Of a stretch of 28,139 bases of DNA, positions 850-22,609 are shown in pieces. Position numbers and translations under genes: made by a program. The notes under the pieces are model-generated. The model ran no database searches and had not been told where the DNA came from. It saw nothing but the letters and a program-made list of their open reading frames with translations. The stretch spans positions 1 to 28,139 of the IMG/VR virus record IMGVR_UViG_3300032893_000237, one strand, 5' to 3'. How positions within the stretch are numbered: position 1 is the first letter of the stretch; each line of letters starts with the position of its first letter. The DNA comes from a virus.

Positions 850-1503
850 TCAATTATTCGAATACTTCCGTAACATCTGCATTACGGTATCCAGCGTGCC
901 TGCATCCGGACTGCTTAATTTTTTGAAAAGTCCATCCATATAATTTTGATTTTCCGGTGTGATGCCGTTCAATACATTCTTTCCTCCTCCGGTCAACATC
1001 GAAGCCCCGGTCGAAGCAGCACCGGCAACCGGATTGATGAACTTCGCCGCTGTCCCGGCAATGCCCAAAATGTCGTCGAACGTGCTTGCATTGCTTAGTG
1101 TATTCAGATATTGCTGCGTCGCGTCCATCCGGCCGTTCTTCATAAAGTTGGCAAGGAATTGTTCATCTCCCCGCTCCACGTCCAATCCCTTTTCCGCCGC
1201 ATTGCTTTCTAAGTCTCCGAACGCCGTCGCATAACGGGAATCGATATCGCCGAACGTCGTCTCCGGCATCGCATTGCTCCCGCCCATTCTCATCGCAGCG
1301 CCGGACATGGAATTTGCCCGGCGTGTTGCAAGATTTCCACGCGCCGGGTCGAACGTCCTCGATACATCCCCAGCCGTTCGCCGCTTCAGCCCGTACGTGT
1401 TTTCCACATTCCCGATCGTGGAAAGACTATCCATAATATCCTTCCAGCTCGCCTGCCCTTCCCGCTCTCGCGGGCTTGTAAATATATCGCTCAAAAAACT
1501 CAT
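850..1503 (-). CDS. Putative ejection (DNA transfer) protein, 217 aa
   Basis: The frame extends upstream to 1542, but the ATG at 1503 is preferred because AAAGGA sits a normal distance upstream and the fibre gene ahead stops at 1517. The protein begins MSFLSDIFTSPREREGQA. It has a basic N-terminal third and an Ala/Gly-rich stretch at about residues 150-180 (GIAGTAAKFINPVAGAAS, then TGGGKN) that could interact with membrane. It has no cysteine and no signal peptide. Length and position resemble P22 gp7 (about 229 residues), which is ejected into the host with DNA. This is an inference from position and composition; I do not see a diagnostic motif. It is followed 8 bases later by the next gene and is probably co-translated with it. 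Confidence 0.65.
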   Translation of the reverse strand: MSFLSDIFTSPREREGQASWKDIMDSLSTIGNVENTYGLKRRTAGDVSRTFDPARGNLATRRANSMSGAAMRMGGSNAMPETTFGDIDSRYATAFGDLESNAAEKGLDVERGDEQFLANFMKNGRMDATQQYLNTLSNASTFDDILGIAGTAAKFINPVAGAASTGASMLTGGGKNVLNGITPENQNYMDGLFKKLSSPDAGTLDTVMQMLRKYSNN

Positions 1504-1516
1504 ACAAATTCCTTTC

Positions 1517-2665
1517 TTATTGCACACTCCAATGAACAACAAACATGCCTATTTTCTTACTCAATGTATTGTTCGGATTCAGAAAGAACCCAACTTGACT
1601 GGCGGACGATATAAAATCTGTGCTTGAAACGCTGTAAAACAAATTCCAATACCTGCCATCTACAGACCAGTAGCAATATCGTGTTCCACCCGTTGTTTTT
1701 ATCCGTAACCAAAGGAAACTATTCACACCTAATATGATAGTAGCAGAGGTGTAGTCCGCAGACCAACTTGTCGGCGAATTCCATTTGTTGACAAACAGTT
1801 CGGTTCCTCCGGTTGTCCTCGTCGAGTACTCAAGTGCGATCATCTTTCCCGTCCACGCATTGCGCCAGAATAACCCTACACCATGATAATTCGTATAATA
1901 CATCTGCGGCAATATTGCTGCAATTACATCGTGCGTGCTGCTATCTACGGTTTCCACGAATCCCGACACCGAGTCAACAGTTGTACTATTGTGCTCGATG
2001 TAAACACCGCCGTACGTTGTATCGACCGTCGCACTTCCTTGGTTAATCCAAGAAAATTTTGAAAATGATGGCTTCACCAACGTCGGCAGCCAGTACAACT
2101 GTGCACTCCCTCCGCCTCCGCCACTTCCGACTCTTGAACTAATCGCAGCAGCTGTATCTTTTAAGTTTTTCGGTGTTACATAACCCCACCCACTATCTGC
2201 TCTTGGAAGATATGTCGTGCTGTCACCCTTACCGAGTTTTCTTGTCTCAAGCGCGCTTGCCGTATCTTTTAAGTTTTTCGGCGTGCTCCACACAACTCCA
2301 GAATCGCTTCTAAATAAATAATTACCAATCGGTTGATATGTCTGTGCAGCATGGGAGCGCGTTTCTATCTTTGTCACCGTATCGATACTCATCGTATGCG
2401 TTGCAAAATAATACGGCGTAATAAACAACCAGCTGCTATCACCTCTACTCGCTTTCTTTGCCAGCGAATCACTCAGCCCCCTCACCATCCACCACGGCAA
2501 CGGAGTACTCAACGTTGAGACATTATCGATTTCCATACTATCTCGCATCGGATATGGAATTCTCAAAACCTTGTGCGGCGCCGTCGGATCCACATACAGC
2601 CATTGCTGTCCCATTGCCGACACAGTAGCCATTATTATTAACGTCATCAAAAATATTTTTTTCAT
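1517..2665 (-). CDS. Tail-fibre-like protein with Sec signal peptide, lectin-like C-terminus (382 aa)
   Basis: The start ATG at 2665 follows AAGGAG, just after the upstream fibre gene stop. Residues 1-19 form a classic Sec signal (MKK, hydrophobic core, AMG then QQ). The mature part has fibre-shaft repeats: two copies of a segment containing TPKNLKDTA (near residues 130 and 163) and RSDSG/RADSG motifs. A run of five glycines near residue 185 looks like a hinge. The C-terminal 190 residues are Ser/Thr/Tyr/Trp-rich and resemble a concanavalin-like beta-sandwich ending in FFLNPNN...GMFVVHWSVQ, a plausible receptor-binding head. The gene is exactly as long as its upstream neighbour (1149 bases). 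A signal peptide on a fibre is odd, because tail fibres normally fold in the cytoplasm. Confidence 0.75.
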   Translation of the reverse strand: MKKIFLMTLIIMATVSAMGQQWLYVDPTAPHKVLRIPYPMRDSMEIDNVSTLSTPLPWWMVRGLSDSLAKKASRGDSSWLFITPYYFATHTMSIDTVTKIETRSHAAQTYQPIGNYLFRSDSGVVWSTPKNLKDTASALETRKLGKGDSTTYLPRADSGWGYVTPKNLKDTAAAISSRVGSGGGGGSAQLYWLPTLVKPSFSKFSWINQGSATVDTTYGGVYIEHNSTTVDSVSGFVETVDSSTHDVIAAILPQMYYTNYHGVGLFWRNAWTGKMIALEYSTRTTGGTELFVNKWNSPTSWSADYTSATIILGVNSFLWLRIKTTGGTRYCYWSVDGRYWNLFYSVSSTDFISSASQVGFFLNPNNTLSKKIGMFVVHWSVQ

Positions 2666-2678
2666 AAATTCTCCTTAA

Positions 2679-3827
2679 TTATTGTATCAACACAATACAT
2701 TGAGATGCACTCGTGGTATTGCCATTACATTCTCCAAACAAATTTATTTCCCATGTGTACCATGAGCCATCGGTTAGTTGAGAATGTACATCGGACCATT
2801 GTAGATTCATCGTGGCGGTCATTCCTACATAACTGGTTGAATTAGTTACGCCAGATTGCCATGATTCGTAATTGGTTATCTCTGCTATCGTTACCGATAT
2901 ATATGTTTCATAGGATGAGCTTTGAACCTTGACCAGTCCGATTGCAATGAGGTAAGTCATTCCTGTTTTATATAAAAATTTACCGCGCAGGATTTTATGC
3001 AAGGTACCGTCAGATACCGTATATACCGGAAAGTCTGGCGCGCCTACACTTGCATAAATTGGCAAACTATTCCAAATTGTTTGGCTGCTTGATGTTGGTA
3101 AATAGTACCCTGCTGCTATACTAATCGTTGGCGTTGTTCCACCGCTCGATGATAATCCCGTTCCCGCACCAACAGATGTTACTTGTGCGGTATTGGTCAC
3201 ATTTCCAAGGCCGACAGAAGAAGAGTTGAGTGTTTGCCATGTTTTATCTCCTCTCCAATATTGTGCAGTTGTTCCTGCTGTAATCGCTGGTTCTTTTTGA
3301 CCAAGTAAATAATTTGCACGAACAGAATCCATCTTTGCGAACCACAATAAACTGTCGGCCACAAATCTTGAAACTATAAAATCCCACTGACTATGGTTAT
3401 TCGTTGTTGTGTACCAAGAACTACTCGTATAAATTGGATCAGATTCGGTTTTTAAATATCCTTTTGCTATCAGCCCCGAAGGAGTAACATATCCTCCAGC
3501 GTAAACACCACTATCTGCTTTATTAACTTGAAGATTGTTTGATACATTACCAAGTCCTATCGCCGTTGAATTAAATGTTTGCCAAGATTTATCGCCTCTC
3601 CAATATTGCGCAGTAGTTCCATTGGCTATGGTGTTTTCCTTTCCCGCAAGCAATCCGTTCACACGCGTCGAATCCATCTTCCTTCCCACCACTCCAATCG
3701 TAGAGTCTATTCGAGCGTTGATTGTATCCGCCTTACTTTTTAAGCGCCGTTCATCCACTAATTTATTTTGAGCGAATAAAATTACCGGCAGCATCGATAA
3801 TAAAAACACAAAATATAATCTTTTCAT
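2679..3827 (-). CDS. Tail-fibre-like protein with Sec signal peptide (382 aa)
   Basis: The frame can be read from 3851, but the ATG at 3827 overlaps the preceding stop as ATGA and gives a clean signal peptide: MKR, a hydrophobic core, then LFA/QNK with predicted cleavage after residue 19. The mature part holds two related fibre repeats, each with a GTTAQYWRGDK(S/T)WQT core followed by a VGLGNV or IGLGNV motif, about 115 residues apart; such GTT-QYWRGDK-W repeats are typical of phage fibre shafts. The C-terminal 140 residues are beta-rich (YLIAIGLVKV, YETYISVTIAEI). Coupled to the upstream fibre-like gene and followed 13 bases later by the second signal-bearing fibre. Fibre identity is good; why it carries an export signal is unknown. 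Confidence 0.75.
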   Translation of the reverse strand: MKRLYFVFLLSMLPVILFAQNKLVDERRLKSKADTINARIDSTIGVVGRKMDSTRVNGLLAGKENTIANGTTAQYWRGDKSWQTFNSTAIGLGNVSNNLQVNKADSGVYAGGYVTPSGLIAKGYLKTESDPIYTSSSWYTTTNNHSQWDFIVSRFVADSLLWFAKMDSVRANYLLGQKEPAITAGTTAQYWRGDKTWQTLNSSSVGLGNVTNTAQVTSVGAGTGLSSSGGTTPTISIAAGYYLPTSSSQTIWNSLPIYASVGAPDFPVYTVSDGTLHKILRGKFLYKTGMTYLIAIGLVKVQSSSYETYISVTIAEITNYESWQSGVTNSTSYVGMTATMNLQWSDVHSQLTDGSWYTWEINLFGECNGNTTSASQCIVLIQ

Positions 3828-4528
3828 ACCCACTCCGTTCCCGACCACCAATAGGGCCGTCCTTCATCTGTATCCAAAAATCCTATCACCGGACTTGTCG
3901 GTGTAAGCGTTGCTCCCAGCGCATTTCGTTGAGCAGTTGTTCCCTTGTTTATGGTGCAGGCAGCGATCTCAGCTTCCAACGCTGCCAACTTGCTATCGTC
4001 AAGATTCATCTCTACAGCGCTCTCTCTTACGAGAGCCCACTTTACGAGTAATCCTGCATCATCCGTTCCACCCGCCGAAGTAATTGTAAAACTGGTTTCC
4101 GGCGTTATGTTGCTGTATGAGATCTTTGCGCCACTTGTTCCTGCCGGTGGATCGAGCAGTACCATACTGTTCGCTTCTATGTCTTCGCTTTCTACATCTG
4201 CCGTTCCGTTTGCATCGAGCATCACGCTCCCGTGCGGCATAGTACTCTTCGCCTTCAAAAGCGTTAGCATATCCGGCGTAAAGAAAATATTGATCGTGCC
4301 TTCTTGAATGTCATCTAAAGTATCTGTGCTTTTATCGAAGGAATTTCCCGTTGCTTCATTGACAATTTTCGTGACTGTTGTTCGCGTAACGCTGCTTCCC
4401 TGCGTTTCCGTTATCGTGCTGAACTTCTGCTGCACATGCTCTTCGAACTTCGCCAGCACTTGCCTTAACGCTTCGGACGCTTTCGCCGGATCCGCCGGCA
4501 ATTTCATATTTCTAAAATTTACAATCAT
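3824..4528 (-). CDS. Tail fibre or tail-needle-like protein (234 aa)
   Basis: The start at 4528 is preceded by a weak GGGG/AAAAG tract; a second ATG lies seven codons in. The N-terminal 60 residues are predicted helical and could be coiled coil (ASEALRQVLAKFEEHVQQKF). The middle is beta-rich. The C-terminus (GTTAQRNALGATL... then FLDTDEGRPYWWSGTEWV) is the short GTTAQR...DT..G.P.WW.G..W motif often seen at the end of phage fibre and head-fibre proteins. It has no signal peptide, unlike the next two genes. In P22 the gene after gp10 encodes the 233-residue needle gp26, so length and place fit a needle analogue, but the C-terminal motif points to a fibre. The stop overlaps the next start (ATGA). 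Confidence 0.65.
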   Translation of the reverse strand: MIVNFRNMKLPADPAKASEALRQVLAKFEEHVQQKFSTITETQGSSVTRTTVTKIVNEATGNSFDKSTDTLDDIQEGTINIFFTPDMLTLLKAKSTMPHGSVMLDANGTADVESEDIEANSMVLLDPPAGTSGAKISYSNITPETSFTITSAGGTDDAGLLVKWALVRESAVEMNLDDSKLAALEAEIAACTINKGTTAQRNALGATLTPTSPVIGFLDTDEGRPYWWSGTEWV

Positions 4529-4564: not shown

Positions 4565-7500
4565 CTAACTCCTCCCATCCATATCTCCGCCTGCGACCAT
4601 CGGATCATAATACACATCCGCACTTTCAATCTTCACTTTCTGATTCGCCATCGTTGCTGCCGCATCGAACCGTATTCGGGATCCTTTGCACATGCTTCCT
4701 AACGGCGCATACAATTCCTTTATATTTTCCGTCGCCGGCAGTGTGTATGTTGCCGCGGCCGTTTCCGCATCATCGAGAAACATCGATACTGTAATCGGCA
4801 CGTCTGTCTTATACTGGATCACCCAGCCGATCAACAAAACATCTAACGCGTTCCCGCCGCCGGCTTCTTTCAACGGCTCGATCTTGTTGCTCTCCCAGCT
4901 CATTGTATAACTTGCGCCGTCATGCAGTGTCGCGCCCGATTTATTCAGCGTGCACAGTTTGCCGTCCATCAACAGATCGATCGTACCGTCCATCGCTACC
5001 TTCATGAGTTTCGGCACATCCGCTAATTCCATCTGCATCCATCCGCCATTTTCAAGATCGTACGACCATTGCATTCCTGCCGCATTCACAATCAAAAGTT
5101 TATTCACACGATCGATTGCGCAGCTCGCCCCTTCCTTCTGCGCTGCCGTCAACGCTTTCCAGTCCTCAATCCACTCTGTGTTGATCGTCTTAAACTCTCG
5201 CGTGCTCAGCGAATGGATCCCGTTGTAATCGCACCAGTACACTTCGTCGTTAAAGAAGACCACGCTTCTTTGGCTGCATACGCCCACCGCTTGCGTCAAC
5301 CGGTCCCGCTCGTATGTGGATCCGCTCGGCGTCAGCACAACAACACTTCGCTTCTTGCCGACGAACAAACTTTCTCCCATCGGCGCCAGCGCTACAATCT
5401 CATCGCCGTCCCCATACTCCACATCGATCGTGTGCGTTCCGTCGTAAGCAAAAATATCGACCTGCATCATCGCATCTCCGCTGGCCGCGCACACAAACAC
5501 CGTGTTCGGATATTGATACGTTGTTCCTATCGCCGATCCGATCAGCACATTACCGATAAATGTTTTTGCACCGATCGTGCAGCCGGTCAAATATTTCACA
5601 ATCCCCGTGGCATCGTACGCGCGTCCCATATCCGCATCGATCTCCGCTCCAATGCCTTGATACGCTACCTGATCGATGTTTGCCGCTACCGCGTCTCCCA
5701 CCGTCCGGTAATCGCTTTCCCGGATCGATATTGTCGTTGTGCGATGGTAGAAATGTTTCGTCGCCGGATTGTAATACGGATCCGCTTCCCACGTTTCTTC
5801 CGTCACCACGCCCGTCGTATCGTTTGTCACCACACTTAAGTCACGTTGTAAGACTCGATAAAATCCCGATCCATCTTTTTCTATATATACATACGCATAT
5901 CGGAGCCGCGGAGGAATTCCACCGGCACTCACTAACAACTTAAAATCAAGGCGCTGCGTCCCGTCCAAACTGATCGTAAAGACTGTCGGCGCCAGATCAA
6001 TAATGAATCCGTCCCCGTATAACAGCGTTCCCGCCAGAAGAAGATTCAGCGTTGTGTTCGTTACCACAACTTGATATTGAGCATGTGTCGTATATGTCGT
6101 TCCATCGACATCTACATTTTTATAAACTACTTTCGTTGCAGCAAGCGTCACATGAGCATACAATTCCGCTCCATCCGTTCCTACGGCTGCGGCCGTTGCA
6201 GCGGCAATCGGCCACGATGAAACCAACGAAAGATCTGTAATGCTTCGCTTTTCTATCGTGTAACCACCGGAAGGGCAGGTGTCATATAAAAATCCGTTAC
6301 AAACACAAACCGATGGATACTGTTGGATCGCACCCGTATCGAGCCAATTTGTTACGGCAAGTGTCGAGCAAAGTGCCTTGAAAATATACGACGTTCTGTC
6401 GTTACTGTGCGATGTTACGCCGTACAGATATCCACCGGCATAACAAAGGGAATCTATCTCTCGAATCCTGTCGGTGTTTGGTCCCTGGAACGTAATCGAA
6501 TGGGCTAATTCTGCGACTGTCACATCATATTGCGCAATGCCTATGGGCGGATCCGCTATATCCAATGTTGTTGATGCTACATAAATATAGGTACCATCTG
6601 TAACGCAGAACGCTGTGCGGCAACTATATGCTCCCCAATACGTAATTTGGGGGCTACCATGTTCTGTGGTCGCAATATTTAAATGCGTCGTTACAATGAC
6701 TGCAGTAAAATCGCTCAATGCAATTTTTGCAAGATACAGATAATGGTTCCCGTCATCGATCGTGTATAGCACCCACAAATATCCGCCCATTACGAGAATA
6801 TCTCTAAACGTAAAGTTCGTTGCCGACGCAATCTGCAGCGCCTTCACAAACGTATAATCCTCTGCGGAATATTTATTGATCACGTTCGGAGTCGTTTTAT
6901 CCGGCCGGTAAATGAATCCGCCGCTCAACGCAAATCGTTCGCCTGCAGAATCGACAGAATATTTCAGCGCTATTTCCTGCACCGCTCCGGCATGCGCTTC
7001 TACCGCCTGCCGTATCTGCCCGTCATCCGTGCCCAGCGCAACCTTCAACGCATAGCTGCCGGCAGCTAATGGACTCGATGCGTCCGTCTGTGCCGCACTC
7101 TCCAATCCATCCAACAGCACGGCATACCGCCACGGCGAGCCGCATGCCATATCAAGAATCATCCTATCCTGTGCAGCATCCGGAGTAGCCCACGAATACG
7201 TTTTCTTCCGGAATCCCACCATCCGGCTTACATCCTTGTCGGTGTTTCCTGTGGTCAATCGCACTTCGTTCAAATAATTCCAGATTGCGATATCCATTCG
7301 CCCAAGGTCAGGCAGCGTGTTCAGCAGATCATCAGCGCTGTACGCTGTTCCTTCATCGTTCGTCGCGTATGCACGTATGTGATACTGCGTTTCCGGCGCC
7401 AATCCGCTCAATATCGCAGTGAACAGATCATCTTCGTCTTCGCTCGTAAAGACGGTATCGCTTAACGTTGGGTTCGGATTTAAGCTCACCACCACGCCGC

Positions 7501-9775
7501 GTGCTGTAATCGCGCTCGCTCCCTCGTATGTGATATCGCAATCAATCGTTGCACCCGTTGGTGTCAATGCTTTCTGATCGACAATCTCCACTTCCGGCAA
7601 TGGGTGTGTGTAAAAATCGATCTCGCTACCATAGCATACAGCATTTTGTAAAATCGCTCCTGCCGGTGGATCAGGTACAATGTAAGATCGCACATAATAA
7701 TGTTCTTTATCGGATAGCCCTTCTACCGTAACACTCCACTCTCCAAGGGCATTACTATCTTTACAGACCACCGTATCGTCAAGCGTCGGATTCGGATGCG
7801 TTGCATAACAAAATCCTCGCCGCTTGATCGATAATTCCGTCTCAAGAACATGCATCGTCAATAATGCTGAACCGCCTGCCACATCTGTTACTGATACTGT
7901 TTTTAGAATTGCCAGCCATATCGGATTAATAATGGGATTCCCAAAATACGGATACCCGACACCCAAGACTGCCCATCCACCCGGCGATACTATGAAAAGA
8001 ATTCCTTTCACTGTATCCATTCCTGCGCTTGGGAAATAGCCGGGATTTATATTCTCCATGCAATTCCCTGCTGCATTGGCTGTGCGGTATGAGAAGTTCA
8101 TGACTAACGGCGGAGTCGTAGAGTGCACTATCTGTCCATAACCAAAAGTTTGATCTGGGTCCGGATATCCGGCGGCGCTCAAAACACAGCGCACATTATT
8201 TTCCTTGTCTACATCGCACCCTAAATTCGGCGTACGATTGACATAAGCTCCACTGCCACCATTCCAAGAAGGTAATTCCGTCAAATCTCCTCTGCCCATA
8301 CCGTCATAGCCGGGAAATGCGCAACTTGTCTTGTACATTTTATCTTTTACCCATATCACACTTCCATCCTGGCCGCCATATATTGAAGTTCCCGGGCTAC
8401 CGCCACCATGCGGCGTGCCCGTTTCAATTGCATAATATGTAGAATAAGCTGGCGTGTAAATATATCCGGGATTATTCAGCGGTTCCTGCGTATTTATTAC
8501 TGTTTCGGGACTATATGATGCACCAAATGCATTTACAGCGTATGCTTTAATGGTGTAGCTCTGATTACCAAAGGGAAGTCCGCTTAACCACAGGTGATAC
8601 GTAAAATCAGGAACCGTGTCAGTGTGCCATTCTTCCTCAATTGCATTTTTATATAAAAATCCTGTTTCCGTGATTGGTGCATCACCGGGGTCTACAATGA
8701 TTCCCGAACAGTAGACATCATCGTCATCTTCACTGTACACTAAATCGGTTGTTACCGTCGGTGTCGGCGGTGCATACCCATTCGAAAGAAAATATCCTTT
8801 GCTACATGCACCGATCAAATTGTTTGCAATCGGATTATATACAACCATGCCGGAGCTGCCGGAGCTGTCTAAATTGGCGTCGTACGGCGGCGCGTACGCA
8901 TTCAAAATTCCATTATACAATCGTAAAATCGGGTGCGCTCCCGATCCGATGAACGTGCTAATCCATACTCCACCTCCTCCATCGATGTCAATGCACTTCG
9001 GCGTGTACCCCACAATAACGCTGCTTTGGTCCGTTACAGCGTACGTTGCCGGATCGATAGCAACCAGCGTCGTTGCGGTCGCGTGTCCCACCAACAATAT
9101 CCTATTCGTCAACGCATCATACGCCCCATGTCTGCCCACCCAATCTCCCGTGCTGGACAGCGTCGGCAGGCCGGCAGAAATTGTTGTCAACAGCGCACCG
9201 GCCGTTGAATACACTTTTATCTGTCCGTTGTAGCAATCACACACCCAGATTGTATTCGTACTATCGCAGTACAATGTATCACACACATTTCCATCAAACA
9301 CCCTGTCTGTCGTACCAATTTGTGTTGTTTGTTGGTTCAGCAGTGAAAATTTGTAGAGATATCCATGGAAAACTCCCGGACTGTATAAAAATGCTCCTGA
9401 CGCCCAATACACATCTGATCCGTGTATCCCGCAAGTTGTTGGTCGGCCGTTACTGTAGTTGGGCGCCGTTTGTCCTGGGAAATACGTGGTTGTTCCGTCA
9501 TACGCGATCTTACACCAGCAATTTCCACCGCTGTATCCTGCGCCATACATATTCCCCAGAGTATCGGGAATCAACCAATGTTGGCTCAATCCGTTGCTGT
9601 TGCTGCCCGGCATCGAAGGAGTGTTGAATGTCATTTTCTTCAGCAATGTTCCGTTCGGGTCCGTAATCCAGATATTCATCCCGTCCGTGTACCATGCATT
9701 TCCGTTGGAATCGATCGCGGCATTCTGGCTCGTGTTGAAATCCGCATTGTAATATGGCGTCCATGTCAATGCCAT
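4565..9775 (-). CDS. Giant mosaic tail protein: beta-propellers, FN3-like modules and gp10-like C-terminus (1736 aa)
   Basis: The start ATG at 9775 overlaps the previous stop as TAATG. Visible layout by approximate residue: 1-335 propeller-like repeats (IDSNGNAWYTDG, DSTNTIWVCDCYNGQIKVYS); 338-431 a fibronectin-III-like module (GIIVDPG...ITETGFLY...YTIKAYAVNAFG); 440-620 a second propeller-like block; 623-720 and 725-810 two more FN3-like modules with the RGFCYATHPNPTLDD / RGVVVSLNPNPTLSD signature and YHIRAYATN; 930-1200 a third propeller-like block; 1230-1736 the closing part of phage tail-stabilisation propellers (GDEIVALAPMGESLFVGKKRS, VFFNDEVYWCDYNGIHSLS). The last part suggests a P22 gp10-like tail-hub plug. 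The FN3 modules are of a type common in secreted Bacteroidota proteins, so this looks like a phage core gene enlarged by host-type domains. It has no signal peptide. Confidence 0.75.
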   Translation of the reverse strand: MALTWTPYYNADFNTSQNAAIDSNGNAWYTDGMNIWITDPNGTLLKKMTFNTPSMPGSNSNGLSQHWLIPDTLGNMYGAGYSGGNCWCKIAYDGTTTYFPGQTAPNYSNGRPTTCGIHGSDVYWASGAFLYSPGVFHGYLYKFSLLNQQTTQIGTTDRVFDGNVCDTLYCDSTNTIWVCDCYNGQIKVYSTAGALLTTISAGLPTLSSTGDWVGRHGAYDALTNRILLVGHATATTLVAIDPATYAVTDQSSVIVGYTPKCIDIDGGGGVWISTFIGSGAHPILRLYNGILNAYAPPYDANLDSSGSSGMVVYNPIANNLIGACSKGYFLSNGYAPPTPTVTTDLVYSEDDDDVYCSGIIVDPGDAPITETGFLYKNAIEEEWHTDTVPDFTYHLWLSGLPFGNQSYTIKAYAVNAFGASYSPETVINTQEPLNNPGYIYTPAYSTYYAIETGTPHGGGSPGTSIYGGQDGSVIWVKDKMYKTSCAFPGYDGMGRGDLTELPSWNGGSGAYVNRTPNLGCDVDKENNVRCVLSAAGYPDPDQTFGYGQIVHSTTPPLVMNFSYRTANAAGNCMENINPGYFPSAGMDTVKGILFIVSPGGWAVLGVGYPYFGNPIINPIWLAILKTVSVTDVAGGSALLTMHVLETELSIKRRGFCYATHPNPTLDDTVVCKDSNALGEWSVTVEGLSDKEHYYVRSYIVPDPPAGAILQNAVCYGSEIDFYTHPLPEVEIVDQKALTPTGATIDCDITYEGASAITARGVVVSLNPNPTLSDTVFTSEDEDDLFTAILSGLAPETQYHIRAYATNDEGTAYSADDLLNTLPDLGRMDIAIWNYLNEVRLTTGNTDKDVSRMVGFRKKTYSWATPDAAQDRMILDMACGSPWRYAVLLDGLESAAQTDASSPLAAGSYALKVALGTDDGQIRQAVEAHAGAVQEIALKYSVDSAGERFALSGGFIYRPDKTTPNVINKYSAEDYTFVKALQIASATNFTFRDILVMGGYLWVLYTIDDGNHYLYLAKIALSDFTAVIVTTHLNIATTEHGSPQITYWGAYSCRTAFCVTDGTYIYVASTTLDIADPPIGIAQYDVTVAELAHSITFQGPNTDRIREIDSLCYAGGYLYGVTSHSNDRTSYIFKALCSTLAVTNWLDTGAIQQYPSVCVCNGFLYDTCPSGGYTIEKRSITDLSLVSSWPIAAATAAAVGTDGAELYAHVTLAATKVVYKNVDVDGTTYTTHAQYQVVVTNTTLNLLLAGTLLYGDGFIIDLAPTVFTISLDGTQRLDFKLLVSAGGIPPRLRYAYVYIEKDGSGFYRVLQRDLSVVTNDTTGVVTEETWEADPYYNPATKHFYHRTTTISIRESDYRTVGDAVAANIDQVAYQGIGAEIDADMGRAYDATGIVKYLTGCTIGAKTFIGNVLIGSAIGTTYQYPNTVFVCAASGDAMMQVDIFAYDGTHTIDVEYGDGDEIVALAPMGESLFVGKKRSVVVLTPSGSTYERDRLTQAVGVCSQRSVVFFNDEVYWCDYNGIHSLSTREFKTINTEWIEDWKALTAAQKEGASCAIDRVNKLLIVNAAGMQWSYDLENGGWMQMELADVPKLMKVAMDGTIDLLMDGKLCTLNKSGATLHDGASYTMSWESNKIEPLKEAGGGNALDVLLIGWVIQYKTDVPITVSMFLDDAETAAATYTLPATENIKELYAPLGSMCKGSRIRFDAAATMANQKVKIESADVYYDPMVAGGDMDGRS

Positions 9776-13063: not shown

Positions 13064-13414
13064 TCAGTTCGCCCACAGACGGCTTATAAAACCTGTTCCG
13101 CTCTTGGCCTTGCGATACACATATTTGGCATATTCGATCAGCTGCCAATGTTCGCCTTTATATACCGTCCGCCATGTCGTGTCATTGTTCGTACGGAACA
13201 GCAGCGTATCGCTGCCGGAACTTTCATTCGTAATCGTCAGCTGCACCACAGCATAATCACCGCTCACGGCAAGCGTGTCCGGTGTCGTGGTGATCTTCTT
13301 TTCACTCGTCACCTGAATGCTCAGAGGTTTCCAGTTCTGGCTGTAACAGACATCGGCACAGCTGGTCATCATCAACATTGCCGTGCCGATCAAGATCAAT
13401 ACAATTTTTTTCAT
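13064..13414 (-). CDS. Predicted lipoprotein in the head-tail gene cluster (116 aa)
   Basis: An open frame reaches 13483, but its first 23 codons are REP-like repeat sequence; ATG at 13414 with AAAGGAGAAAGG upstream is the convincing start. The protein begins MKKIVLILIGTAMLMMTSC, a lipoprotein signal with invariant Cys at residue 19 (position -3 is Met, so the lipobox is not perfect). Mature part is beta-rich (YAVVQLTITNESSGSDTLLF, TTWRTVYKGEHW), resembling short phage proteins made of a single beta sandwich ('TITN...LFR...W.T...G'). It stops one base before the adaptor gene and is therefore co-expressed with virion genes. Possible roles are superinfection exclusion or a surface-displayed phage product; these are guesses. 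Confidence 0.65.
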   Translation of the reverse strand: MKKIVLILIGTAMLMMTSCADVCYSQNWKPLSIQVTSEKKITTTPDTLAVSGDYAVVQLTITNESSGSDTLLFRTNNDTTWRTVYKGEHWQLIEYAKYVYRKAKSGTGFISRLWAN

Positions 13415-14300: not shown

Positions 14301-14831
14301 TTATCGTTTTCTGAAATACCGGTCAACCCGCAAATACACTTTGCTCGCTTTGGCCGTCAGCGTTGCATTGCCCGATGCACTTGCCGAGACACTCAATCCA
14401 AATTGATCGTATCCCTGCCAATATGCACCGGGCACCACGATGGAACTCATTTTCGCCGTCGCCGTGGTACTCGTGGGCGTATCGATCTGCACGCATGTTG
14501 CCTGGGACGGCAATGTCCAGCTGTCTTTCGCTTTCCAATACACGGTGAGTTTATACGTCGAATCCGCCGTCACATACCACGTCACTTTCACACTGTCCGG
14601 AAATGCGTTTTGCAAATCGGTCAATCGTGTTCCGTTGTACGTCAACGTGTAATACGTCAATCCATCCTTGTTCTGTGTCATCGTGCTGTCCACAGCGCTG
14701 TTCTTCAGCTGCAAACCTTTATACAATTCATCGGTGACGCGAAAGACTTGTGCTTGCACCGGTTGAACAACGAATGCCGTCAACATCGATATCATCAACA
14801 TGAGGATTACAAAAATATTTTTTGTCTTCAT
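14301..14831 (-). CDS. Secreted beta-rich protein next to the major capsid gene (176 aa)
   Basis: ATG at 14831 follows GAAAGGAAGAGC. Residues 1-27 are a strong Sec signal (MKTKN, a long hydrophobic core, PVQA then QVF). The mature chain is Thr/Ser/Tyr-rich and beta-predicted (LTYYTLTYNGTRL, VKVTWYVTADSTYKLTVYWK, SVSASASGNATLTAKASK), ending with basic VYLRVDRYFRKR. One cysteine remains. It sits where phages usually encode a decoration protein, straight after the capsid gene and a terminator. I recognise no family. The signal peptide argues against simple cytoplasmic capsid decoration, so either it is displayed on the host or the signal is retained in an unusual role. Confidence 0.7.
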   Translation of the reverse strand: MKTKNIFVILMLMISMLTAFVVQPVQAQVFRVTDELYKGLQLKNSAVDSTMTQNKDGLTYYTLTYNGTRLTDLQNAFPDSVKVTWYVTADSTYKLTVYWKAKDSWTLPSQATCVQIDTPTSTTATAKMSSIVVPGAYWQGYDQFGLSVSASASGNATLTAKASKVYLRVDRYFRKR

Positions 14832-14946: not shown

Positions 14947-16284
14947 TTAATTCGAGTACTTGAACTTATGCGGGCTGTAGCTCGCAATCACCATGCTGCT
15001 GGTGTTTTCCAGGAACGACCCGGCACTGAGGATGTTTCCATTCTCATCCGGGATGCCGCCGTCCTGATCAAAGATGTCGTTGCGAACAACGCTCTCGATC
15101 GTATCAATGCCGATACCCTGGACATTTTCATAATCCCGAACGTTTTCTTTCAGCTTCATCTTCTCACCCACGCAAACCGACAAGGCGCTCTTGCCCATCA
15201 AGATCGCGAGCTTCTTGTTGCTCGTGTCGAGCGTGTTGATCCAGTTGCCGACCTTGATGCCTGCACCGCGCAGCGCTGCGGTCGCAGCCGGTCCGTATTC
15301 CACCGTTCCATCGGTCACGTTGGAATCGTCCGCGTGCGATCGTACACCCCAGAGTTTCAAATCCGGGATGATTAATGCACCGCCCAGATACACTTCGGCA
15401 GCTTTTCCTAACGGATGCTTCTTCAGATCCTCCGGCATATTTTTGACCCAGTCAAGGTAATCCGGATCTTTGCGCAATTGCTTGATCTGCGCATCGCTGC
15501 AGAAGATCAGATGGAACGGCGTTCCGGCCAGCGTTACCAGCGGAGAAATTTTCCGTCGATATGCTTCCAGCACGGAGTTCTCGATCAGATCGGCGCTAAA
15601 ATAATCGCTCGCCTGATCGGCCAAACCGTCGCACGCCGCAGCCACCGCTGCTTCATACGCGGTCGTATACGGACGCCCGTTCGTGTAGCTCACGAATCCG
15701 TCACCCGCCACTAAGAAGTTCGGATGGGATTTTATTCCCAGCCCGCGTCCACCGGCTCCGCCTGCAGCAACCAACAGGTCACGACTGTAGCCTGCCAGCG
15801 TTGCAAGAATGAAGTTGCCCGGATGGTAATCTTCACCGAACCATGTGGTGATCGAGTTACTGGCTTGCGTCACCAGATAATCTGCATAGCCTTTGGTGAG
15901 CTGCCGGCTCATACCGGTCGGCTTGGCCACGGCTTTGCGCGTGCGGTTAATACTGGCCGAACGCCACGCCAGCTTTTGATCCTCTTCCTGTCCTTCCAAC
16001 GGCCGGTCGCCGTGTGTCGGCATGCCGGTCAATCGGACCATCACGGGGATCCGCATATCCATTTGCCCGTCCTTCACAAACTCTTCGAAGAGTTCGATCG
16101 GCGCACCGGTCAACGCAGGCGGTTCACCCGGATTGCGAACAGCGATATCCTTCCCAACCGATTTCACATAGTTGGGCGCCACACATTCTGCGAATTTATT
16201 ACCCCACCACTGGCGGCGTTTTATCTTCTCGGATAAAATATCCACCTTCCCGTAGCTTGTGCTTTCAAAAACACTAAATCCCAT
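14947..16284 (-). CDS. Major capsid protein, DUF4043/N4-gp56-like (445 aa)
   Basis: ATG at 16284 follows AAAGGAAATG. Diagnostic segments for the DUF4043/N4-gp56 capsid family are seen at residues 60-130: a strand-rich E-loop-like part with MDMRIPVMVRLTGMP, then GDRPLEGQEEDQKLAWRSAS and NRTRKAV. The central region has TPFHLIFCSDAQIKQLRKDP and HPLGKAAEVYLGGALIIPD, and the C-terminus has KKLAILMGKSALSVCVGEKM, all as expected for the HK97-fold capsid proteins of this group. Length (445) fits the family. It follows the scaffold gene and precedes a terminator. A separate scaffold plus DUF4043-type capsid suggests procapsid assembly as in P22 or N4-type phages. Confidence 0.85.
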   Translation of the reverse strand: MGFSVFESTSYGKVDILSEKIKRRQWWGNKFAECVAPNYVKSVGKDIAVRNPGEPPALTGAPIELFEEFVKDGQMDMRIPVMVRLTGMPTHGDRPLEGQEEDQKLAWRSASINRTRKAVAKPTGMSRQLTKGYADYLVTQASNSITTWFGEDYHPGNFILATLAGYSRDLLVAAGGAGGRGLGIKSHPNFLVAGDGFVSYTNGRPYTTAYEAAVAAACDGLADQASDYFSADLIENSVLEAYRRKISPLVTLAGTPFHLIFCSDAQIKQLRKDPDYLDWVKNMPEDLKKHPLGKAAEVYLGGALIIPDLKLWGVRSHADDSNVTDGTVEYGPAATAALRGAGIKVGNWINTLDTSNKKLAILMGKSALSVCVGEKMKLKENVRDYENVQGIGIDTIESVVRNDIFDQDGGIPDENGNILSAGSFLENTSSMVIASYSPHKFKYSN

Positions 16285-18369: not shown

Positions 18370-20463
18370 TTAGGCTCCTACCCGTTTTTGCACTTGTTCT
18401 AAAATCGCATTTTTCTGGATGCCGTTCATCATCAACTGATTCTGTCCGACACTCTGTTTGATCGCACTCTGTGTTTGCAGCTCGCCCATTTTTGCTTTCA
18501 TCACCTGCTCGGCGAACGCCTGCATCTTCGGTGCAATCGGGTTGTCCCATAGACGGAATGTTTCCGGCCAGTTCACAAACTCTGCGGGTACCATTTTGAC
18601 AAACTGCATCATTTCTTCAAACTTGATCATGCGCATGGTTTGGTCTAACTGCATCGTGTCCGGGGTAAAGTCATACTCCCCCTGACGCACATCGTTCAAC
18701 ACGCCGTCCAACGTCCGGTAATTCACCTGCATCCAATACGCACCGATCTCTTTCTTGCCGACAATCACGCCCGGCATGCTTTGCATTTCATCGGAGGGTT
18801 CTGCCAGGATTCGTACAGCACGCTCACTCGTCAAATAGGTTTGGATCAATCCGTCCACATACGAATATGTCAGGCGCATGGCTTTGATCATGTGATTCAT
18901 AAACAATGCCTGCATAATCTTCCCCTGCATCACACGGGCATTAAACAAGGTCGCCGGCTCGTTCGCGCTTTCTTTGCGGCCTTCCATATTCGCCGTAATG
19001 TTCAGAATCTTCTGCACCAGATCGCGGTCTTCTTCCGCGTAGCCGCTTAACAACGTCACGAGGTCGCTCGGCGGATACCGCTTCTCCGGAGGTTTTTCCC
19101 CTTTGAAAATCATCAACCTTCCGCGCACTTTACTCAGCCACGGTTCCTCGTCTTCGATCGCTCCCTTGTGCGCTTCAATCGGAGGATTCACCATATCCAT
19201 AATCGCTTCCAGGGCAGTCATTCTTCGTTGATTGTACGAATCCTGTGCATCCATGCCCGGCATAATCAAACTCAACACTTTCGTTGCATCCGGATGCAAA
19301 TCATGCGCGACTACAATCTGATGCTGCCATCCTTTGTTTTGTACTTCATACGGAGCTTCAAATAACAAATTCTCCGGCAGCAGTCCGGGTGCAGCAGCCA
19401 TCCGCCAGTATTCTTTTCGCGTCACATTGTCCACCACCTGCCCGCGCGGATATTGCGCTAACAAATTTGCCACCGGCGCTTCATCGATGGCATTCGCTTC
19501 ACCGGACGGCTGTTCAATGTTCGTCGATCCGGTTTCCGTTGTCTTTGTTACCGCTTCCGGCAGGTCAAAGGTTTGCCGGCTTTCCGGATCATAAAAAACT
19601 TTGGAGTGCACGACACGACGATCGTGGAATTCGATCACGCGATACATCCCGTTCGCCGCATCGATGAAATCCGTTTTATACGGATTCCCTTCCAGCGTCG
19701 CTTTGATGCCCAGCCAATCCATCGCACCGTTCCACACACGCGTCAACCAGCCCTGTGCTTTGCCGACATCCTTGTACGCCGCTTCCAACGTCTTCGCACG
19801 CTCTTTGATCAATGCCACTGTTTCCGGTTTCAGGTAACGGGAATAAATCGATATAATTTCATCGCTGGTATAAAATCCTGTCACTTCGTAATACCGGCGT
19901 TTCTCCGGATTGTTCAGCGGTGCGTCCGGATCCAACAAAATTGTCAGCGGATCGGCTGCTTCGGTTATCCCTACGCCTTCGATATCTTCGGAAAAATCCA
20001 TCCGGTTATTGATCGCACCGATGCCGCAGATCGCTGCATCGATTCCCGCCTTGGCAATCTCGTCATACCCGTTGCAGTTCGGCATCCACCAATCTCCCAC
20101 CAGCACATTGTGGAGCTCCGTTGCATCTTCATCGCCGGCACGTTTGGGTACCGCTTTCAACACGGTTTTATTTTGCGTCAGCGTTCCGCCGATATACAAA
20201 ATGGCTCCCAGGAGCAAATTGAACACCTTCGCCGGCCGGTGCTCTTCGTCCAGGGCTTTGCGCACTTCCGCATCGATCTGGTTGCCGATGATATACTCAT
20301 AACACTTGATCGCCATGATTCTCCACGCGCGCCATCGTTCCGCCAGAGAAATGTGCACGGCCGAGAGTTTTTCCACCTTGCTTTTTTGATCGTCTTCCAT
20401 CACCGGCAATGCCGGCATCGACGTCTTCACCTTACTGCGAATCATTGTTTGTTCATCGTCCAT
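18370..20463 (-). CDS. Portal protein, P22-like (697 aa)
   Basis: ATG at 20463 follows the terL stop by three bases. Length is close to P22 gp1 (725). Family-typical segments: an N-terminal helix with ERWRAWRIMAIKCYEYIIGNQ; AKVFNLLLGAILYIGGTLTQNK; a conserved 'DP' part (EAADPLTILLDPDAPLNNPEKRRYYEVTGF split over residues 165-200); GWQHQIVVAHDLHP; the long clip/stem helices; and a C-terminal helical region (AEQVMKAKMGELQTQSAIKQ) that may be a partial barrel. The portal ring is the DNA entry/exit channel and docks terminase. It lies directly downstream of terL, as in P22-like phages. Confidence 0.85.
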   Translation of the reverse strand: MDDEQTMIRSKVKTSMPALPVMEDDQKSKVEKLSAVHISLAERWRAWRIMAIKCYEYIIGNQIDAEVRKALDEEHRPAKVFNLLLGAILYIGGTLTQNKTVLKAVPKRAGDEDATELHNVLVGDWWMPNCNGYDEIAKAGIDAAICGIGAINNRMDFSEDIEGVGITEAADPLTILLDPDAPLNNPEKRRYYEVTGFYTSDEIISIYSRYLKPETVALIKERAKTLEAAYKDVGKAQGWLTRVWNGAMDWLGIKATLEGNPYKTDFIDAANGMYRVIEFHDRRVVHSKVFYDPESRQTFDLPEAVTKTTETGSTNIEQPSGEANAIDEAPVANLLAQYPRGQVVDNVTRKEYWRMAAAPGLLPENLLFEAPYEVQNKGWQHQIVVAHDLHPDATKVLSLIMPGMDAQDSYNQRRMTALEAIMDMVNPPIEAHKGAIEDEEPWLSKVRGRLMIFKGEKPPEKRYPPSDLVTLLSGYAEEDRDLVQKILNITANMEGRKESANEPATLFNARVMQGKIMQALFMNHMIKAMRLTYSYVDGLIQTYLTSERAVRILAEPSDEMQSMPGVIVGKKEIGAYWMQVNYRTLDGVLNDVRQGEYDFTPDTMQLDQTMRMIKFEEMMQFVKMVPAEFVNWPETFRLWDNPIAPKMQAFAEQVMKAKMGELQTQSAIKQSVGQNQLMMNGIQKNAILEQVQKRVGA

Positions 20464-20466
20464 GCT

Positions 20467-21996
20467 CTATCCCTGTCCTGGTCTCCAGGCCTTCCCAAAT
20501 GATTTTTTCGGACCTGCTTCGTGTTTGTAGTCGCTCGGTGTGCGGCTTGCCGTGCTCTTCGGCGCCGGCGCTTTATACACCGCCATGCACTCATACCGCT
20601 GTTCGTCTAAGGCGTGGTCGCTTACTTCCGGATCGTTGCCGCGGCCTTTGATGTCGTTCGGGTTTAATTCGTCATGCTCGGCCGCAAGGATTTCATCAAT
20701 CAACGCTTCGTTGGAATCCACGCGAAAATAAAACCACATCTTCCGGCGCATCATATCTTTCCAGACGCCCCAGCCGTTCACACGATCCGTCACGGCTTTC
20801 TCCAGCGTCAATCCCTGCGCTTCAAACAGATCGGCAAATGTTTTTTCTTCACCGATAATAGCCAGCTTGTCATGATGTGCCCATGCGTCGTGACCGCTCA
20901 CCACCTGATCCGGCATCCGGCCTCGTGTGTATTTGTTCGTGCGGATGAACGTCATTACATTGTCGACATTCTCGGACATGCCCGCGTTGGCTTTGTAGTA
21001 TGTTCCGATACGGTACGATTTTCCTGTCAGATCGATGGCATGCAATCCGAAACTACAAGCACTCGTCCAGCCCGGATCGAAACTCCCGACAATTCTCCAG
21101 CGGTCCGGAATCGTAAATGGTTCCACTAACTGTCCGCCTTGTTCTTCCGGTGTCCCGCTAAACTCATCAAAGAAATCTCCGCTGAATGCATCCCAATCGT
21201 TCTGCAGCAAGGCACGCTCATGTTTTTTCCCCTGCGCTTTCACGCGTCCGGCATAACCGGGATCGCGCTGCATCAAAATCGGATTATCCGTCAACCGTGC
21301 GGGAATATACGCCCGGCTCATCATATCGCGTAATTCTTGCGGCGTGGCCTGCCTGTCGGTGACCCGCTGGGTAATATCGATACCGCATGGATTGCGCACA
21401 GGATCTTCTGAAGGAAGCAGGTACCGAATTTTAAACGGCTCGGTGTCCTTCACGAATCTTGACCGCACCCATTTCAATCCTGCACCGATCGGATTGGCCG
21501 TGCCTCTGTATCGCACGAATAAATTTGGAATCACCGTCCGGCCTCTGCCCAGCAAATGCAAATATTGCGTCAGCGTAAATTGCTCCAGCTGATCGAATCC
21601 GATGAACTGATATTCCATCGAGTCATGATCAAATTTATTTTTCTCGGATTCCAGATGGCAGATAAAAATTCTGGCACCGCTCGGAAATGTCCAGCTCGGT
21701 CCGGGATCGCCGCGCCGTCCCAATAATGGTTTGCCGCCATAAAACTTGTAGTAATTATTTGTCTCTTCAATCAGCTTCGTGAACTCCGTGGATTTTCTCC
21801 GGAACAACACGCCGCGATAATTCGGAACGTCGATCGCTTTTTTGCCGAGCGCCGTTTGTTCAAATTGCAATCCCAGCGCATCGATGCACAGCTCCCAGGT
21901 TTTCCCGCCGCCGACTCCGCCGCCGTACAGCAGTTCATCGGCGGCACATTGCAACGCCGCCGTTTGCGGGCCATCTTGCGGTTTGATCACCACCAT
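20467..21996 (-). CDS. terL: Terminase large subunit
   Basis: An in-frame extension to 22071 would add 25 residues, but it overlaps terS, and the ATG at 21996, five bases after the terS stop, fits the family N-terminus. From that start: Walker A YGGGVGGGKTW at about residues 24-34; Walker B region YQFIGFDQLEQF; a coupling motif around RGTANPIGAGLKW. The C-terminal nuclease has acidic residues in SFDPGWTSACSFG, VSGHDAWAHHDK and DPEVSDHALDEQRY, as in RNase H-fold terminases. At 509 residues it is of normal size. The protein is the ATP-driven DNA packaging motor that cuts concatemers and docks on the portal encoded next. Confidence 0.9.
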   Translation of the reverse strand: MVVIKPQDGPQTAALQCAADELLYGGGVGGGKTWELCIDALGLQFEQTALGKKAIDVPNYRGVLFRRKSTEFTKLIEETNNYYKFYGGKPLLGRRGDPGPSWTFPSGARIFICHLESEKNKFDHDSMEYQFIGFDQLEQFTLTQYLHLLGRGRTVIPNLFVRYRGTANPIGAGLKWVRSRFVKDTEPFKIRYLLPSEDPVRNPCGIDITQRVTDRQATPQELRDMMSRAYIPARLTDNPILMQRDPGYAGRVKAQGKKHERALLQNDWDAFSGDFFDEFSGTPEEQGGQLVEPFTIPDRWRIVGSFDPGWTSACSFGLHAIDLTGKSYRIGTYYKANAGMSENVDNVMTFIRTNKYTRGRMPDQVVSGHDAWAHHDKLAIIGEEKTFADLFEAQGLTLEKAVTDRVNGWGVWKDMMRRKMWFYFRVDSNEALIDEILAAEHDELNPNDIKGRGNDPEVSDHALDEQRYECMAVYKAPAPKSTASRTPSDYKHEAGPKKSFGKAWRPGQG

Positions 21997-22000
21997 CGCA

Positions 22001-22609
22001 CTACTCGGCGCTGCTGGGCAAACGCACAACATTCCCGTCAAAAGCAGGAACCACAAATGTCGGTGCTTCAATTTTCTCTCCTCCGCTGGTCACATCCACT
22101 TTTCGTTTCCAATTCTCCGGGTCGCGATTCGCTAAATAAAATTCAAGGCACTCCGGATCCGCCGCGATTTGTTTCACCACGGTCTTCGTTACATGCAGCT
22201 CCTCGGAAAGCATCTGCGTGATCTTCTCGCCCTTGACTTGCCGCATCACCATCACCGGCTCCATCGTTACTTCGGCAAAGTTGTATCCGCACGCGCGTCT
22301 GAAGAGACTGTTTTCGACCGCAAGAAGTGCTTTTTTTCGTCCCTGTTGTACCACTGCCTTAAATTTTGAGTTCTGTTTGTAACGATTGAGCGTGCGCTCA
22401 CTTACACCACATGCGTATGCTACCTGCTTATCCAAAAGCCCCGCGCCGTAGAGATTCAGAATTGCATCGCAATTCATCCGCTCGTGCACCTTTTCTACCG
22501 GTATACGAGACGATCTTTTTTTCTTTTTCTTGGGGATTTTTTTCGACTTTTGTTTCATCGCTTCGAAGCCTTTTCCTTTAGGGATGGAGCCGCTGCCGTT
22601 ATCCGACAT
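22001..22609 (-). CDS. terS: Terminase small subunit
   Basis: ATG at 22609 with AAGGAG upstream is preferred over the GTG one codon earlier. After a Lys-rich N-terminal tail (KSKKIPKKKKKRSSR) residues about 45-95 form a helix-turn-helix (AILNLYGAGLLDKQVAYACG then VSERTLNRYKQNSKFKAVV), as in terminase small subunits that bind pac or cos. The rest is a helical oligomerisation part and a short tail with NRDPENWKRKVDVTSGG, a phrase often found in small terminase subunits. It precedes terL by five bases. It selects phage DNA for packaging and regulates TerL. Confidence 0.85.
   Translation of the reverse strand: MSDNGSGSIPKGKGFEAMKQKSKKIPKKKKKRSSRIPVEKVHERMNCDAILNLYGAGLLDKQVAYACGVSERTLNRYKQNSKFKAVVQQGRKKALLAVENSLFRRACGYNFAEVTMEPVMVMRQVKGEKITQMLSEELHVTKTVVKQIAADPECLEFYLANRDPENWKRKVDVTSGGEKIEAPTFVVPAFDGNVVRLPSSAE

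Follow-up and report, generated by a model that had tools for sequence, protein, structure and literature searches.

Two fibre-type genes in a virion structural operon

The window, as the whole stretch analysed here is called, is a 28,139-base IMG/VR virus fragment from an uncultured phage. The late genes are encoded by the minus strand, where the terminase small and large subunits, the portal protein and the major capsid protein are followed by smaller genes and then, in order, by genes for a 1736-aa protein, a 234-aa protein, two fibre-type proteins (f2 and f1), a 218-aa protein and a truncated 280-aa protein. The f1 and f2 genes sit within this virion structural operon and are flanked on both sides by structural-type genes. 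The main features are the following.

18370..20463, minus strand: portal protein (PHROG 156), in the operon of f1 and f2
14947..16284, minus strand: major capsid protein (PHROG 334), in the operon of f1 and f2
14301..14831, minus strand: 176-aa protein adjoining the capsid gene, with a Sec signal by rule-based call; cut VQA/QVF by the Q-rule
13064..13414, minus strand: protein of about 116 aa with a lipoprotein-type signal, MMTS/C, by rule-based call
3824..4528, minus strand: 234-aa fibre-type protein coupled to f2, without a signal; matches to PF24146 (K1-lyase_C domain) and to virion structural PHROGs
2679..3827, minus strand: f2, 382-aa fibre-type protein with two shaft repeats and a Sec signal; ATG at 3827
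3771..3827, minus strand: predicted Sec signal peptide of f2, residues 1-19, MKRLYFVFLLSMLPVILFA/QNK; called with and without a Gln bonus
1517..2665, minus strand: f1, 382-aa fibre-type protein with DSG..TPKNLKDTA repeats and a Sec signal; ATG at 2665
2609..2665, minus strand: predicted Sec signal peptide of f1 (rule-based), residues 1-19 by the Q-rule (AMG/QQW), with residue 17 as the alternative
850..1506, minus strand: 218-aa protein downstream of f1, without a signal, probably a virion protein; weak tail-protein PHROG match

The ORF coordinates bear out the initial annotation in that both products have 382 residues. Comparison of f1 with f2 revealed no significant similarity, and the two are not recognisable paralogues; gene duplication was rejected as their origin on this ground, and the equal length is therefore a coincidence. 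The fibre-shaft repeats that had been described are also present. Residues about 62-103 and 178-216 of f2 both match one and the same set of shaft segments in other fibres, with hits to phage minor tail proteins and to many viral fibres, and the DSG..TPKNLKDTA unit is repeated in f1, the C-terminal half of which weakly matches Caulobacter phage tail proteins. A sequence search of the PDB returned no meaningful relatives for either protein, and the AlphaFold2 models of mature f1 and f2 have pLDDT values of 33 and 32, respectively, which are too low for the fold to be read. In the viral contigs searched, no relatives were found of the portal, the capsid protein, f1 or the 176-aa protein, and thus no close relative of the window phage was found.

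Several other products of this operon have distinctive features. The 1736-aa protein (4565-9775, minus strand) combines a propeller-like N-terminus, with SGL/NHL matches, and fn3-like repeats, and its C-terminal part weakly matches internal-virion PHROG families. The 176-aa protein is encoded directly downstream of the capsid gene, the usual place of a decoration protein, and the small protein with the MMTS/C signal lies amid structural genes.

Predicted Sec signals and their cleavage sites

Signals were called by a rule-based detector, distinct from SignalP, that looks for a charged start, a hydrophobic core and agreement with the -3/-1 rule. It identified signals in four of the 29 window genes, namely f1, f2, the gene for the 176-aa protein and the one lipoprotein-type gene; the pass rate for random N-termini of equal composition is 0.8%. 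The n-, h- and c-regions of a Sec signal are present in both f1 and f2 by these rules, so that the N-terminal Sec signals described on both products are upheld. The placement of the cut after residue 19 holds for f2, where it is unambiguous (LFA/QNK), but not securely for f1, where a cut after residue 17 (VSA/M) outscores residue 19 when Gln is ignored and the Q-rule prefers residue 19. Gln at +1 is accordingly clear for f2 and applies to f1 only if the Q-rule picks the site. Likewise, the VQA/QVF site of the 176-aa protein exposes Gln by the Q-rule, and this protein has another possible site without that rule.

The starts from which these signals are read are very likely real, since the f2 start codon overlaps the stop of the upstream gene as ATGA and an AAGGAG ribosome-binding site lies just 5′ of the f1 ATG. 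For this reason among others, it is highly improbable that the signal-like N-termini stem from hydrophobic stretches occurring by chance or from wrongly assigned start codons. The window does contain chance extensions that look like signals, for example one from a TTG at 22071 ahead of the terminase, but the low chance rate, the coupled or ribosome-binding-site-supported ATG starts, and the Gln at +1 together with the recurrence of such signals in other phages (see below) all stand against it. The TTG extension of the terminase ORF (minus strand) was itself rejected because it overlaps the small-subunit gene and the ATG at 21996 is a better start; it is almost certainly spurious and shows that signals called automatically in phage ORFs should be treated with care.

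In Bacteroidota, about 71% of the proteins cut by signal peptidase I have Gln at +1, the Q-rule, and this Gln is then cyclised to pyroglutamate (PMC10653852; PMC5837995). Its presence in the window signals suggests a Bacteroidota host. The host of the window phage is thus probably a member of the Bacteroidota, the signal type being the sole direct clue to it.

Signal-bearing fibres in other phages

The shaft repeat of f2 is widespread, with matches in 231 viral stretches, of which the best 80 yielded 64 shaft fibres after near-duplicates were removed. Signals are present on seven of these 64, all with Gln at +1 when sites are scored with a Gln bonus, as against 12 Gln-type signals among the 868 remaining genes in those loci (p=1e-4). 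The enrichment of Gln at +1 has p=0.0004 with the Gln-favouring site score and weakens to p=0.018 without the bonus, in which case Gln follows the site in 5/7 signal-bearing shaft fibres versus 10/44. The window portal has no match in the five signal-bearing shaft-fibre contigs searched, which indicates that the trait is not confined to a single core lineage. Homologues without the signal had been named at the outset as the finding that would speak against export, and these do exist: most other shaft fibres, including those of Dyadobacter contigs and of some Flavobacterium contigs, are signal-less, as are fibres of several Bacteroidota phages, but the signal-bearing minority remains. The trait is therefore recurrent rather than universal. 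In addition, Bacteroidota genomes encode secreted proteins in which the f2-type shaft repeat follows a signal, and the shaft thus appears compatible with export. Apparently host-type secreted proteins that combine Sec-type signals with the phage-fibre shaft ('NYQAIARNANG') were seen in Flavobacterium, Sphingobacteriia and Sediminibacterium contigs (L082, L083, L086, L092 and L113-L115).

Similar comparisons can be drawn with cultured Cellulophaga phages. At the distal end of the tail genes of phi10:1, the products gp091-gp094 carry Sec signals with Gln at +1 and are accompanied by GenBank notes citing experimental MS/MS proteomics; gp095 has a signal possibly ending FS/QGK, which the rule set called lipoprotein-type. 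The phi19:1 proteins gp101-104 and the phi18:3 proteins gp085-087 are likewise signal-bearing and MS/MS-noted in GenBank, with a predicted +1 residue other than Gln in phi19:1 gp104 (FG/KDY) and phi18:3 gp085 (SFG/YSQ). Within the stretches examined of these three phages, signals were found in 11/11 MS/MS-noted fibre-block proteins versus 0/18 other MS/MS-noted proteins, where phi18:3 contributes three proteins from part of its genome and virion status in all three phages is that of the GenBank notes. Some members of the MS/MS-noted set could be exported proteins that adhere to virions without being part of them. Similar signal-bearing blocks exist in phi46:3, phi19:3, phi13:2, Nekkels and Ingeline, and the signal-bearing fibre block spans three families (Assiduviridae, Pachyviridae and Duneviridae). 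No such signal was found on the structural proteins examined of phi14:2, phi18:1, phi38:1, phi17:2, crAss001 and 11b.

The signals of the cultured phages are, judging from sequence comparisons, under purifying selection. Seven phages share one 20-residue signal in the 'pectate lyase' family (777-aa type), although the DNA that encodes it has many synonymous differences (pS of 0.30 and pN of 0). For the tail-fibre family, pN/pS amounts to 0.23 over the signal and 0.34 over the 22 residues that follow it; all these values derive from pairs that are not independent. Moreover, the signal and the mature N-terminus are constant and the C-terminal part is swapped between fibre and lyase types, which is the usual combination of a virion-docking end with a variable receptor-binding end.

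These patterns bear on two other explanations of the signals. It could be that they are leftovers of the recruitment of fibre genes from secreted host proteins, the phage protein itself working in the cytoplasm, as the sharing of the shaft repeat with secreted host proteins might suggest; strong purifying selection on the phage signals and the occurrence of the trait in three families make this very unlikely. Alternatively, the N-terminal hydrophobic segment may stay uncleaved and serve as a peg, either for docking into the tail or for keeping the fibre at the membrane up to the time of assembly, in which case full export would be unneeded. The conservation of the signal segment along with the residues that follow it is what would be expected of a docking piece. 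However, the segments resemble signal peptidase I substrates and most have Gln at +1, a rule that is sensible only if cleavage exposes the Gln, and their hydrophobic cores vary freely between phages. A retained peg is therefore rather unlikely, though not to the degree that leftover signals are.

Export, assembly and relation to known systems

In the textbook view, tailed-phage assembly is completed in the cytoplasm, and the initial annotation took folding and attachment of fibres in that compartment as its premise. For this group of phages the premise is doubtful: the annotation of signal-bearing Cellulophaga fibres from virion MS/MS means that it is not obviously valid. Export of f1 and f2, as originally proposed, is predicted from sequence and gains support from the Q-rule-type sites, from recurrence in unrelated phages and from purifying selection in the cultured ones. 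As to what export would serve, surface display and an unusual assembly step had both been put forward. Positive evidence for display did not emerge, and domain searches showed that a type IX C-terminal sorting domain is absent from f1, f2 and the phi10:1 proteins, which leaves display without support beyond the signal itself. An assembly step fits better because virion MS/MS is cited in the annotation of signal-bearing fibre-block proteins in Cellulophaga phages.

A related possibility is that the exported proteins act on or outside the infected cell, as adhesins, in receptor masking or superinfection exclusion, or in polysaccharide cleavage, rather than as working parts of the virion, and that their detection in virion preparations reflects carry-over. 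The signals are indeed typical of secreted proteins, Bacteroidota place the same shaft repeat behind signals in secreted proteins of their own, and phages of Porphyromonas gingivalis encode exported proteins of unknown function. Nonetheless, f1 and f2 lie inside a structural operon with structural-type genes to either side, the signal-bearing block of phi10:1, phi19:1 and phi18:3 contains the annotated fibre proteins and was detected in virions, the pairing of a constant N-terminus with an exchanged C-terminus is the layout of a virion fibre, and the sorting domain of the type IX system is missing. A role at the cell is thus unlikely.

On balance, f1 and f2 are probably virion fibres, acting as receptor-binding proteins, of a phage that itself probably infects Bacteroidota, and they would be exported by Sec, cleaved, matured in the periplasm and mounted at lysis. 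In this scheme, both would be synthesised as Sec preproteins and exported to the periplasm, where host signal peptidase I would cut them to expose a Gln that could then be cyclised to pyroglutamate. Folding would take place in the periplasm after cleavage, and the fibres would be mounted on virions once the inner membrane is breached at lysis. Periplasmic maturation with attachment at lysis would be the simplest route reconciling export with presence in the virion. We infer the host, the cleavage, the periplasmic stay and the time of attachment, and f1 and f2 would be present in virions by analogy. A difficulty for the export route is that virions would have to encounter the periplasmic fibres before lysis dilutes both. 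More tentatively, and with chances that seem a little short of even, tailed phages from several unrelated Bacteroidota-infecting lineages may store Sec-exported, cleaved and pyroglutamylated fibres outside the cytoplasm and acquire them only at lysis, such that the last assembly step would be extracytoplasmic.

Should the fibres of Bacteroidota phages pass through Sec, virions would be completed with envelope-processed parts, and fibre attachment would be tied to lysis and to the signal peptidase and glutaminyl cyclase of the host; such fibres might mature improperly when made in other hosts. A Sec signal with Gln on distal tail genes could also serve as a sequence mark for fibres and for Bacteroidota hosts in metagenomes.

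Like f1 and f2, the fibre and pectate-lyase blocks of Cellulophaga phages (phi10:1 gp091-095, phi19:1 gp101-104, phi18:3 gp085-087, and those of Nekkels and Ingeline) consist of distal fibre-type genes with Sec signals. In those blocks, the signals mostly have Gln at +1 and the genes stand at the end of the structural genes and encode annotated virion proteins. There is no homology between the Cellulophaga block and f1/f2 outside short motifs, and the Cellulophaga signal-plus-docking N-terminus (QTVEGTVGSDG or QTVIKIKQPNP) has no match in f1 or f2. The 234-aa protein of the window has a C-terminal motif that also occurs in the product of the gene that opens the Cellulophaga fibre block. For the lyases of Ingeline and Nekkels, 'signaling peptides' have been published (PMC8776804), and the parts of that report consulted treat these lyases as tail enzymes, without discussion of export. 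Q-rule signals have also been described on proteins of P. gingivalis phages (Nixviridae), the function of which is unknown (PMC10367356); the window shares Q-rule phage genes with them but has these on fibre-type proteins. The lambda protein Lom, a phage-encoded envelope protein (PMC12309495), resembles f1 and f2 in being exported and encoded near tail-fibre genes but is an outer-membrane barrel rather than a fibre. Minor tail proteins of Arthrobacter and Mycobacterium phages have the shaft repeat in common with f2 and belong to the signal-less majority of shaft fibres. In filamentous phages, coat proteins are Sec preproteins, assembly occurs in the membrane, and virions exit without lysis. 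These coats are likewise virion proteins made through Sec, but the window belongs to a tailed phage in which only the fibres would be exported.

The literature searched, in which subscription journals are thinly covered, did not describe the export of tail fibres in any tailed phage and contained no paper joining signals, the Q-rule and virion fibres or fibre assembly. Earlier work had already recorded phage proteins with Q-rule signals and flavophage lyases with signal peptides; what the present analysis newly suggests is a link to fibre assembly, by a route that is still a proposal.

Further loci of a similar kind were encountered. A 155-kb viral contig contains four consecutive Sec-signal genes (L079:14794-20177), possibly another exported fibre block; Gln is at +1 in at least two of the four. 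In Maribacter phage Colly_1, an annotated tail fibre has a lipoprotein-type signal, LVG/C (L148:6923-8929), and the tail-fibre gene is followed by an OmpA-family gene with the Sec signal VSA/QGF.
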